64,000 bases of DNA from contig NZ_JARBAX010000001.1 in assembly GCF_028807635.1 (NCBI RefSeq), forward strand, positions 1,439,001 to 1,503,000, in the 5' to 3' direction. The DNA is from Streptomyces spiramyceticus. Lineage in GTDB: Bacteria; Actinomycetota; Actinomycetes; Streptomycetales; Streptomycetaceae. Within the stretch, counting starts at the first letter, position 1; each line of letters starts with the position of its first letter. The notes beneath the pieces are model-generated. The model ran no database searches, was not told the DNA's origin, and saw only the letters and a list, made by a program, of their open reading frames with translations. Position numbers and translations under genes: made by a program. Of the stretch, positions 1 through 26,718 are shown piece after piece.

Positions 1-4475
<4,475 letters not shown>

Positions 4476-4561
4476 TTGAGGTGGTCTCCTTGGTTGAGGG
4501 GTGGTGCGTGGTTGTCGGGTGCGGTGCGGGTGCGGTGCGTGCGGGTGCAGTGCGGGTGCAG

Positions 4562-4758
4562 GTTGCCTGCGGCGCGGTTCCCCTACCCGCCCCTTTCCCG
4601 AAACTGGGGGCAAGCCCCCAGACCCCCGGACGCCCTACGGGCGTGTCCTCAAACGCCGGACGGGCTGGATTTTCAGCCGTCCGGCGTTTGAGGACCGGGG
4701 TCTGGGGCGGAGCCCCAGTTCGGGAAGGGGCGGGTAGGGGAAAGCGCCGCAGGCAACC
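4562..4758. repeat. Large imperfect palindrome, dispersed intergenic repeat copy 1
   Basis: This fills the 305-base gap between the amylase stop and the pullulanase start. The left arm begins GGTTGCCTGCGGCGC and the right arm ends with its complement. Inner arms (CCTCAAACGCCGGACGGGCTG against CAGCCGTCCGGCGTTTGAGG) flank a short GATTTT loop, giving a hairpin of about 195 bases. The same blocks recur near 16.9 and 57.7 kb. It may stop or attenuate transcription between the two amylolytic genes; no other element is visible in the gap. Confidence 0.85.
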
Positions 4759-4780
4759 CGCGCCTGCGACGCCCCGGGGG

Positions 4781-6178
4781 TCAACCGGCGTTACATGTAC
4801 GCGCATTCACATGCAGCGCAACCGCCGTGTTCGCGCCCAGCGTGGCCGTGAACTGGCCGGAGCCGTTGACTGTCACCGACCTGTTGTTCTGCACGTCGCA
4901 GTACGTGCCGGCCGCCAGCGACGTCTGGAACGTACGGGTCAGCGACCAGCCCTCGTGGTTGATCGCGACGTACGCCTTGTCGCCCCGCCCGAACGCGATC
5001 TGGTCGCCGCCGTTGTCCCACCAGTTCGTGACGCCCTGACCGCGCGCCACGTTCCGGAAGCCGACCATGCTCTTGATCTCGGGCCAGTTGTGCTGGCACT
5101 TCCACCCGTCGCTCCAGCACGCGTTCACCGTCCCGCCGTTGGGCGGCCCGGCGTCCTTGTCCGACCATTCGTAGCCGGAGTGGACGTCGGGCGAGCCGTA
5201 GGGCCAGGCCAGCATGAAGACGTTCGCCAGCGTGTAGTTCGCGCCGTCCTTGTAGTTGAGGGTGTCGCCGCCGCGCTCGGTGTCGTGGTTGTCCACGAAG
5301 ACGGCGGACTTGCCGCTCTCCATGTAGCCCCAGCCCTCGCCGTAGTTCTTCAGGTAGGCCAGGTTCTCCTGGTTGAAGACCCGCTTGAGGTCACGGGCGT
5401 ACCGGAACTCCTGCACATCGCCCGAGCCGAGGTACTCGCTCGGCGAGACCGCCTCCCCCGCGCCGTAGATCGCCTCCTGCTTCCAGTACACGCCCGGATT
5501 GCTCAGCCGGGACTTGATGTTGGCGAGGTCGGCGGCCGGCATGTGCTTGGCCGCGTCGATGCGGAAGCCGTCGACGCCCAGCGAGAGAAGGTCGTTCAGG
5601 TACGTTGCGATCCGGCCGCGTACGTAGTCCTCGCCCGTGTCGAGGTCGGCGAGGCCGACCAGCTCGCAGTTCTGGACGTTGGCGCGGTCGCCGTAGTTGC
5701 TGCCTATCTGGGTGCGGCAGTCGTCCATGTCCGCGCCCGAGTAGGTGCCGGGGTAGTTGTACTTCTCGTACGACGAGCCGCCGGTACCGGTCCCGCCGGC
5801 CGACGCCATGTGGTTGATGACGCTGTCGGCGATGACCTTGACGCCCGCCCCGTGGCAGGCGTTGACCATGTTCGCGAACGACGTGCGGTCACCGAGCCGT
5901 CCCGCGATCTTGTAGCTCACGGGCTGGTACGAGGTCCACCACTGGCTGCCCTGGATGTGCTCCTGGGGCGGGGAGACCTGGACGTAGCCGTAACCGGCCG
6001 GTCCGAGTGTCCGGGTGCACTCCGTGGCGACCGAGTCGAACTTCCACTCGAAGAGGACCGCGGTGACGTCCTTGTCGCCGGGCGGGGCGGCCTGTGCGGT
6101 GCCGGTGGGCGCCACGAGGACGGCTCCTCCGGCCGTGAGGGCGAGGGCGAGCGCGGCAGAGAAAGGTCTGCGGGCCAT
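4781..6178 (-). CDS. amy: Secreted alpha-amylase, GH13
   Basis: Extracellular endo-acting alpha-1,4-glucanase, 465 residues. The start at 6178 is preceded by AGGAGGAAAC and gives a clear signal peptide (MARRPF..., cleavage near AQA). A longer reading frame upstream lacks a ribosome site. All four GH13 motifs are visible: DSVINH near 118, GFRIDAAKH near 206 (nucleophile Asp), EAIYG near 234 (acid Glu) and FVDNHDTE near 296. The protein ends just after the C-terminal beta domain (CNAG) and has no CBM20 starch-binding domain, unlike many longer Streptomyces amylases. Upstream CTTGC repeats suggest control by a MalR-type repressor. Confidence 0.95.
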
Positions 6179-24190: not shown

Positions 24191-24326
24191 ATGTGTTTGT
24201 CCGCCGCCCAGCTCAGCCACAGATGAGATGAGATCGTCCGCAAGATTTCTGTTATCGGTGTCCGGCGGCCGGGTCTCCAGAGTGTTGGACCAGCACTCAC
24301 CAGCCCCACACCGGAAGTTGACCCGC

Positions 24327-25175
24327 ATGAACCAGGAACGCGAGACCTCGCCGTACGACCCGACTCCCGCCCGGCACAGCCGCCGAAGCGGGGCACACCG
24401 AAGCCGCCGACCGCGGCGGGCGGGCGTCGCAGTCGGAGCGGTGGCGCTGATAACGGTCGTCGCCGGCGGATACGGCGCCGTCCAGTCGCTGGCGAACTCC
24501 GGCGCCAGGACGAGCACGGCAGCCGAGGCGTCTCCCACACCGGAGGAACTCCGGTCCAGCGGAACCCCTTCCGCGACCCCGTCGGTCAAGCCCTCCGGCA
24601 CTCCGTCCCGCAAGGCCACCACCTCCGCCTCCCCCTCCAAGGCCAAGCGCAGCGCCACCCCCAAGGCGACCCCGACGGCTGAAAAGAGCCGCACCCAGGC
24701 GCCCGCCGCGCCCAAGCGAGCCCCGGCAGCCGGCTCCGGCAGCGCCGGCAAGCCCTCCGTTACGAACGCCGCCCCGGCCGGCGGGAAGACCGCGCAGCTC
24801 GCGGCGCAGGTCATCGAGATGGTCAACACGGAGCGCGACAAGCACGGTTGCTCCCCCGTCACCTCCAACGCGAAACTCCAGGCCGCGGCCCAGCGGCACT
24901 CCGACGACATGGCGGCCCGTAACTTCTACGACCACACCAATCCCGACGGTGCCGGTCCCGGCGAGCGCATCACGGCTGCCGGGTACCGCTGGACGACGTA
25001 CGGCGAAAACATCTACAAAAGCCCCCAGGACGCCCGCACGGCGATGGACGGCTGGATGAAGAGCCCGGGACACCGTGGCAACATCCTGAACTGCGCCTTC
25101 AAGGAGATCGGCGTCGGCATCAACCTCAGTTCGAACGGCCCCTGGTGGACCCAGAACTTCGCCGCCTCCTCCTGA
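24327..25175 (+). CDS. Membrane-anchored or secreted CAP (SCP-like) domain protein
   Basis: 282 residues. A basic cytoplasmic N-terminus is followed by one hydrophobic helix (about 32-52), a Ser/Thr/Pro/Lys-rich wall-spanning linker (about 60-155) and a C-terminal CAP domain (about 158-282). CAP motifs are NTERDKHGCSPV, QRHSDDMAARNFYDHTNPDG, GENIYKS and HRGNILNC, ending in GPWWTQNFA. ATG 24327 has GGAAG upstream. The next gene, 13 bases on, ends in a clearly paralogous CAP domain, so the two probably work together at the cell surface. Biochemical role is unknown; bacterial CAP proteins are linked to envelope or protease-like functions. Confidence 0.9.
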   Translation: MNQERETSPYDPTPARHSRRSGAHRSRRPRRAGVAVGAVALITVVAGGYGAVQSLANSGARTSTAAEASPTPEELRSSGTPSATPSVKPSGTPSRKATTSASPSKAKRSATPKATPTAEKSRTQAPAAPKRAPAAGSGSAGKPSVTNAAPAGGKTAQLAAQVIEMVNTERDKHGCSPVTSNAKLQAAAQRHSDDMAARNFYDHTNPDGAGPGERITAAGYRWTTYGENIYKSPQDARTAMDGWMKSPGHRGNILNCAFKEIGVGINLSSNGPWWTQNFAASS

Positions 25176-25188
25176 GGCAGCCCCGACG

Positions 25189-26718
25189 GTGCGGGCACAG
25201 GGCACGGCGCGAGCCGGTGGACGAGAGCGGGCGGGCGTGGAGCGGGCGGGCGTGGACAGGGATTGCGGAACCGCGGTAGTGGCAGCCGCCGTAGCGGGGG
25301 ACGTGCAGGCCAGGGAGCAAGTCCTCGCGGCTCACCTGCCGTTGGTCTACAACGTCGTCGGCCGGGCGCTCGACGGTCACGCCGACGTGGACGACGTGGT
25401 CCAGGACACCATGCTGCGCGCCCTGAACGCGCTCGACGACCTGCGCGATCCCGGGGCGTTCCGGTCCTGGCTCATCGCGATAGCGATGAATCAGATACGC
25501 CGCCACTGCTCGCCCGGCGCCCGCCCTCCCGTCGGCGCGCTCGACCAGGCGCGGGAAGTCCCTGATCCGGGGGCCGACTTCGTGGAGCTCACCATCTGGC
25601 GGCTCGGCCTGTCCGGGCAGCGCCGGGAGGTGGCCGAGGCCACCCGCTGGCTCGACGCCGACAACCGGGAGCTGCTGTCGCTGTGGTGGCTGGAGGCGGC
25701 GGGCGAGATCACCCGGGGCGAGCTGGCCGATGCCCTCGGGATCGCGCCCGCCCATGCCGCGGTCCGCGTCCAGCGGGTGAAGGAGCAGCTGGAGGCCGGG
25801 CGGCTGGTGGTGCGTTCGCTGGCGGCCGTGCCGGGCTGCCCCGGCCTTCAGGCGCTCACCGCGTCGTGGGACGAGGCGCCGTCAGCGCTGTGGCGCAAGC
25901 GCATAGCGCGGCATGTGCGGGACTGCGCCGGCTGTTCGGGGCGCTCGGGGGATCTGGTGCCCGCGGAGGGGCTGCTGGCCCGCCTCAGTCTGGTGCCTCT
26001 GCCGTTGTCCCTGTCGGCCCCCGAATCACCCGGCATGCAGGTCACCGCGAGCGCCACACCGCGACAGCGCCCCCGTACCGCTGCTGTCGTCGCGGTGGCG
26101 GCGGTGCTGGCGGCGGCCACCGCCGTCGCGCTGTGGCCGTGGGGTCCCGGCGAGGGTCCTACGGCTCCGGCCCCGGCGGCAGTGCCCCCGCAGAAGGCGG
26201 CTCCCGTACGGCCCGCGCCGAAGGCACCGCCCACGGCGAGAGCATCGGCATCGGCCAAGCCCACGCGGTCCCCCACCGCCGTGCCGTCGCCCACGCCGCC
26301 GAAGGCCATCCGCACGCAGCCGCCCGCCCGTAAAAAGCCCGGCGTCGAACAGCAGGTCGCCGACCTGGTCAACGCCCACCGGGCGCGGCGCGGCTGCCCG
26401 CCGGTACGCGTCGACCCGCAGCTGCGCACGGCGGCGCAGCGGCACGCGGACGACATGGCCGCCCGCAACTACTTCGAGCACACCGGCCCGGACGGACTCG
26501 ACCCCGGCGCACGGATCTCCGCCGCGGGCTACGCGTGGAGCGCCTGGGCCGAGAACATCCATCGCGGGCCCACGACGGCCGATGCCACGGTGGCCGACTG
26601 GATGAGCGATGCCGCCCACCGGGACAACATCCTCAACTGCCGTTTCACCCACATGGGCATCGGCCTGACGTCAGGCCCGGGCGGCCCCTGGTGGACCCAG
26701 GACTTCGCCGCCCACTGA
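25189..26718 (+). CDS. ECF sigma factor fused to zinc-finger, TM helix and CAP domain
   Basis: 509-residue multidomain protein. Residues about 38-105 match sigma region 2 (VDDVVQDTMLRALNALDDLR, AFRSWLIAIAMNQIRRH) and about 148-205 match region 4 (ITRGELADALGIAPAHAAVR). Near 240 is an anti-sigma-like zinc motif, HVRDCAGC (HxxxCxxC). One helix at about 297-316 precedes a Pro/Ala-rich linker (to 381) and a CAP domain at 382-509 with HRDNILNC and GPWWTQDFA, paralogous to the upstream protein. The topology places the sigma domains inside and CAP outside. GTG 25189 is a weakly supported start; GTG 25252 is an alternative. Sigma factors with C-terminal zinc finger, TM and extracellular domains are known (ECF52 type); the CAP version is unusual to me. 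Confidence 0.85.
   Translation: MRAQGTARAGGRERAGVERAGVDRDCGTAVVAAAVAGDVQAREQVLAAHLPLVYNVVGRALDGHADVDDVVQDTMLRALNALDDLRDPGAFRSWLIAIAMNQIRRHCSPGARPPVGALDQAREVPDPGADFVELTIWRLGLSGQRREVAEATRWLDADNRELLSLWWLEAAGEITRGELADALGIAPAHAAVRVQRVKEQLEAGRLVVRSLAAVPGCPGLQALTASWDEAPSALWRKRIARHVRDCAGCSGRSGDLVPAEGLLARLSLVPLPLSLSAPESPGMQVTASATPRQRPRTAAVVAVAAVLAAATAVALWPWGPGEGPTAPAPAAVPPQKAAPVRPAPKAPPTARASASAKPTRSPTAVPSPTPPKAIRTQPPARKKPGVEQQVADLVNAHRARRGCPPVRVDPQLRTAAQRHADDMAARNYFEHTGPDGLDPGARISAAGYAWSAWAENIHRGPTTADATVADWMSDAAHRDNILNCRFTHMGIGLTSGPGGPWWTQDFAAH

Follow-up and report, generated by a model that had tools for sequence, protein, structure and literature searches.

SCO4117 of Streptomyces coelicolor represents the ECF52 group of extracytoplasmic function (ECF) sigma factors, for which a one-protein layout has been described and a proteolytic release proposed (PMC5826349). 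In Pseudomonas putida, cleavage of IutY by Prc and RseP liberates the sigma part, and cleavage is also expected for ECF48, ECF52 and ECF53 (PMC8999054). In the SigV-RsiV system, the membrane anti-sigma factor RsiV is a lysozyme receptor, and its destruction frees the ECF sigma factor (PMC4183432; PMC5014341). The window analysed here is a stretch of 64,000 nucleotides from Streptomyces spiramyceticus (contig NZ_JARBAX010000001.1, positions 1,439,001 to 1,503,000). On its + strand, it carries a gene encoding a sigma factor, a zinc domain, a membrane helix and a CAP domain in a single protein of 488 amino acids (25252..26718), preceded by a gene for a second CAP protein. The product is probably a membrane-tethered, self-activating ECF sigma factor that has an anti-sigma-like domain built in and a CAP domain outside the cell as its sensor. 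A conserved two-box motif joining sigma and CAP genes, absent from the initial annotation of this locus, is new in this analysis.

The sigma-CAP fusion and its partner protein

The initial annotation described one protein running from sigma regions 2 and 4 through an HxxxCxxC motif and a single transmembrane helix to a CAP domain, an architecture borne out by an unbroken frame, Pfam, TIGR02937 and hydropathy. The open frame (25189-26718, + strand) contains no frameshift and encodes 509 amino acids at its longest, from a first GTG codon at 25189. The GTG at 25252 was chosen as the start on the basis of homologue starts, and the database copy (P0001) begins at an alternative GTG at 25279. A start after the sigma region, which would have left the sigma part untranslated, is ruled out because the homologues start upstream of sigma-2. 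Sigma region 2 (25327..25509) matches Pfam PF04542 (Sigma70_r2, 5.3e-15). Region 4 (25612..25824) was placed from the TIGR02937 span, helices 121-191 of the structure models and profile matches to ECF sigma structures of the PDB, which extend as far as residues 181-182; Sigma70_r4 was not reported in the Pfam search of the fusion protein. The TIGR02937 sigma70-ECF profile covers residues 41-202 of the 509-amino-acid frame, spanning sigma-2 and sigma-4 (63 bits, cut-off 42.9), and places the protein among the ECF sigma factors. Among the Pfam domains expected from the initial annotation, Sigma70_r2 was recovered, as was CAP in both genes, and Sigma70_r4 and zf-HC2 were not.

Towards the C-terminus, sigma-4 is followed by the HxxxCxxC domain, the single hydrophobic helix, a Pro/Ala/Thr-rich linker and the CAP domain. 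The fused zinc anti-sigma-like domain (25837..25935; C196-x24-H221-x3-C225-x2-C228) was delimited by conserved residues and a profile match to zf-HC2 segments. Its four residues, C196, H221, C225 and C228, are unchanged in 60/60 aligned rows, and HxxxCxxC, which agrees with the Hx3Cx2C signature of class I anti-sigma factors (ZAS), is present as a single copy in each of 80/80 relative loci. A conserved LVPAEGLLARLSL segment (25954..25992), in which L235, L241 and L242 are invariant in 60 rows, is possibly anti-sigma helix 4, by analogy with PMC7406223. The transmembrane helix (26077..26133, residues 276-294) has a mean hydropathy of 2.38 and is preceded by RQRPR; this lone hydrophobic helix and the residues flanking it predict a topology with the sigma part inside and the CAP domain outside. 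The outside linker (26134..26346) is probably disordered, judging from its Pro/Ala/Thr-rich sequence and a block pLDDT of about 41-67.

The extracytoplasmic CAP domain (26362..26706; Pfam 8.7e-24) belongs to the PF00188 superfamily, with 85.1 bits against a cut-off of 21.1; the top four fold matches are CAP/SCP proteins, and 4ifa is matched at E 2.2e-8. Three CAP residues are conserved across the 73 members with this domain: H410 and E434 in 71/73 each, and H456 in 68/73. In the sigma genes of loci L070 and L075, the conserved CAP His/Glu residues have been lost. We know of no ligand or role for most bacterial CAP domains.

The gene for the partner CAP protein (24327..25175, 282 amino acids) is also on the + strand and ends 76 nt ahead of the fusion gene. 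Its start is most likely the ATG at 24327, which lies downstream of the promoter-like motif and is favoured because the alternative ATG at 24228 lies upstream of it. The initial annotation had presented this product as a membrane-anchored protein ending in a paralogous CAP domain. The CAP domain (24816..25160; PF00188, 3.7e-23) was recovered, with a C-terminus similar to that of the fusion (the two end in GPWWTQNFAASS and GPWWTQDFAAH), and the anchored form reduces to a hydrophobic N-terminal segment (24420..24482), which may be an anchor or a signal peptide. Both CAP regions of the window score about 84 bits with the NCBIfam model of DalA, a protein said to bind peptidoglycan (PMC10470522); this is far below the cut-off of 200, so peptidoglycan provides a hint, at most, to the ligand. 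A further CAP gene, cg0793 of Corynebacterium, is under the control of MprA (PMC12113857).

The fusion is widespread. At least 595 related stretches were matched and at least 409 confirmed; the best 80 were kept and, with the window, make up the 81 rows referred to here. A C-terminal CAP domain is present in 73/81 rows, and seven of the remaining eight are stopped by a contig end. Sigma70_r2 and CAP occur together in all 120 protein matches listed (of 4654). The sigma-zinc part was matched at E 1e-40 in 81/101 genomes of the genus, that of the window being one of the 101, and a genome has as many as three matches; 26 candidates were scored per genome, and the weakest match (G096) spans residues 143-250 only. 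An assembly or annotation artefact merging two genes can be dismissed for practical purposes, because the same fusion recurs in so many rows, from many assemblies, and in the protein matches listed. No publication on a CAP-bearing ECF sigma factor was found among the papers listed from the open-licence literature, and the view in the initial annotation that a CAP sensor is rarely described is not contradicted; the 2021 ECF classification, which lies outside that scope, may list one. In L068 (Antribacter, 3408-5843), the sigma part, the zinc motif and a promoter-like motif (32.4) are kept, and the C-terminus is a different one, without a Pfam match, which may represent a sensor swap.

A two-box motif at sigma and CAP genes

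Upstream of the 81 sigma genes, a spaced-word count identified GTTAT-N18-TCTC in 56/81, the best word of one shuffle reaching 7. A weight matrix built from these 56 scores at least 14 in 72/81 rows and, over all rows (1.04 Mb), gives 95 matches above 12 bits versus one in the reversed control. The window copy, TGTTATC-N15-GGTCTCC (24250..24278, + strand), scores 30.4 bits (27.5 when the matrix comes solely from the other clade), and is the only exact match in its genome. When two mismatches were allowed, this genome yielded 22 sites versus six for the reversed pattern. Eight ECF promoter patterns, some known and some guessed, were also tried upstream of the 81 sigma genes and rejected, as they were rare, with near-shuffled counts (GGAAC-type, 3/81 vs 2.6; TGACC-type, 5 vs 2.6; GGGAAC alone, 9 vs 10).

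The sigma tree divides the rows into clade A (25) and clade B (56), with support of 95/93. CAP neighbours were counted from all open frames; the gene caller used to cluster neighbours drops CAP genes because their second positions are high in GC. The pairing with a CAP protein noted in the initial annotation holds for the window and is not universal: a CAP gene lies within 1.5 kb of the sigma gene in 17/81 rows, all in clade A. Eight of these genes are co-directional and upstream, eight convergent and downstream, and one, the real CAP gene of L038, is divergent; the CAP gene of L081, 2.2 kb away, was left out. In a CAP tree of 91/92 rows (L052 dropped), which is based on few columns and is weakly supported at many forks, the fused and partner CAP domains of the window fall in separate lineages, each also found in L004 and L026, suggesting that the pair is probably older than these species. 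In these same three loci, the motif precedes the co-directional CAP gene rather than the sigma gene, which suggests that the CAP and sigma genes of the window form an operon.

Applied to the 25 rows of clade A, a matrix from clade B alone (45 sites) gave 36 matches, versus zero in reversed controls. With this matrix, the motif is found before the CAP gene in 7/7 testable co-directional loci (L029 being cut) and in 5/8 testable convergent or divergent ones (L016, L018, L025, L038 and L058; L023 being cut). Seven of the 36 matches are away from any sigma or CAP promoter: one in L021 (+ strand, 7584), two in L060, and four in L064, L066, L080 and L082. Neither of the genes that follow the L060 sites looks like a CAP gene. 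The motif-like sites at 5893 in L066 and 5931 in L064, L080 and L082 (- strand) point towards a divergent gene that gives a weak helix-turn-helix match.

Strict patterns, applied to the 101 genomes, retrieved 38 sites (28 + 10) and none when reversed; these genomes may overlap the 80 loci, and the scan is therefore not entirely independent of the rows from which the motif came. Of these sites, 35 lie 46-86 nt upstream of a sigma match (66 nt in L180; the L167 site is also at a sigma gene). The other three precede CAP genes: that of the window, one in G090, where CAP is followed by a sigma gene, and one in G039, where CAP and sigma genes are on different contigs. A strict site was present in 35/81 genomes with the sigma factor and 0/20 without it (Fisher p 1e-4).

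A third CAP gene of the window's genome has no motif above 8 bits in the stretches inspected (L003/L120). The CAP genes that follow the motif in L038 (4796-5680) and L174 (G039 C9) are of a more remote subtype, with WWGVHNFSD and two further residues at the C-terminus. The gene immediately after the sigma gene in L030 (7815-8971) and L031 (7714-8797) has its own motif copy (35.6 and 18.6 bits) and encodes a papain-like protein (Peptidase_C1, 7.9e-13 for L030) whose N-terminal part includes a hydrophobic stretch; it is a possible further target or activating protease.

Proposed switch and competing explanations

In the resting state, the sigma part would be kept inactive by the zinc domain and the tether. 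This inhibition would be relieved by something that happens to the CAP domain, for instance when it binds a ligand from the cell wall, a lipid or a second CAP protein; the most likely route, by comparison with IutY, SCO4117 and RsiV, is cleavage in steps at the membrane. Once free, the sigma factor would read TGTTATC-N15-GGTCTCC promoters, at its own gene or operon and at the partner CAP gene where present. The motif and its placement are observed, and recognition by this sigma factor is inferred. The outcome would be a positive loop raising the level of the sensor and, where paired, of a second CAP protein able to feed back on the signal. The best reading of the core regulon is the sigma gene itself plus, often, the partner CAP protein. 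A stronger version, in which this one-protein CAP receptor senses a cell-wall ligand or its sibling CAP protein and controls only itself and its partner, which tunes the signal, in a closed surface loop with its own promoter class, is put forward tentatively, with somewhat less than even confidence.

It is also conceivable, if rather unlikely, that the CAP domain has an outside role such as wall binding, and that the sigma part is switched by conformation or tethering alone, without proteolytic release. The retention of the CAP residues in most members is in line with this, as is the binding of DalA to peptidoglycan stated in its abstract, at the sub-threshold scores given above (about 84 vs 200). 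However, the linker between helix and CAP domain is long, of low confidence and ill suited to rigid signal transfer, and a tethered sigma factor would have to reach its promoters from the membrane.

Several observations weigh against the proposed self-activating switch. The Pfam zf-HC2 profile gives no match in the window protein even at E 1, and a profile-profile comparison with eight zf-HC2 segments of the same genome gives E 1.4e-4 with a probability of 53%, hence the term 'anti-sigma-like'. The structure models (pTM 0.37 and 0.63) contain no confident packed sigma-anti-sigma complex. A CAP gene within 1.5 kb is found in 0/56 rows of clade B, 49 of which have that length on both sides, so the partner is dispensable. 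The convergent or divergent CAP genes of L021, L045 and L073 lack the motif (for L021, the full matrix is needed to reach 10.1). Weaker sites occur elsewhere in the window's genome, at 18.0 (L125), 14.6 (L133) and 14.0 bits (L129), scores that accord with the reversed control; the L125 site precedes what we take to be a gene for a ribosomal protein L13-like product. Six of the 81 rows have no clear motif at the sigma or CAP gene: it is weak in L036 (9.0), and none is found at the sigma gene in L060, L064, L066, L080 and L082. No strict site was found in 46/81 sigma-bearing genomes, which means either that the site has variants or that sigma factor and motif are less tightly linked.

The motif could also belong to a DNA-binding regulator rather than to the sigma factor. 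The two boxes would then be the operator of another regulator, or the promoter of another sigma factor, switching on CAP and sigma genes, as the motif-poor rows and the genomes without a strict site might suggest. This explanation is nonetheless improbable: the geometry is promoter-like, with 17 nt between TGTTAT and GTCTCC at the short distance from the sigma match given above, strict sites are confined to genomes with the sigma factor, and L068 retains the motif despite its different C-terminus. Moreover, the commonest neighbour family besides the sigma factor occurs in just 11 loci, at mixed positions, and no co-travelling regulator was therefore seen within about 6 kb. The self-activating switch thus remains the probable reading, with a confidence slightly reduced, chiefly for the missing zf-HC2 match and the genomes without a strict site.

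For a common sigma family, the analysis supplies a predicted promoter motif and ties in CAP genes as likely targets. As the CAP domain is joined to a sigma factor whose promoter is predicted, a ligand or condition acting on it could be read with a simple reporter, and a poorly understood surface-sensing system becomes testable through the motif before the switch and its partner CAP genes.

Comparison with described systems

CAP/SCP proteins (PF00188), known from models or structures of YkwD, BB0689 and DalA, share the fold and conserved residues of the window domains, and are not named as transcription factors. SigV-RsiV differs in consisting of two separate proteins with lysozyme as the ligand, whereas the window encodes one protein. 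The window's genome also contains an ECF52-type protein (L114, 549-2591) with Sigma70_r2, zf-HC2 and NPCBM, and an ECF sigma match with one in-frame TAG (L105). With SCO4117, from the Actinobacteria, the fusion shares a sigma part, zinc finger, membrane helix, Pro-rich linker and outside domain. The outside domain of SCO4117 is carbohydrate-binding, whereas that of the window protein is CAP, and its putative motif is CSGYN-17-SRHA, as opposed to TGTTATC-N15-GGTCTCC. The fusion is not ECF52 as described, because no carbohydrate-binding domain was found in the window protein or at the ends of its relatives, where CAP alone was seen. L114 was not among the BLAST matches of the sigma-zinc part at E 0.01. 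IutY, like the fusion, combines a sigma factor and a membrane anti-sigma factor within one protein; it differs in serving iron-starvation surface signalling for aerobactin, and a CAP domain is not mentioned for it in the section cited. The CAP-sigma protein works like these one-protein switches, ECF52 (SCO4117) and IutY, with a CAP domain at its outer end.
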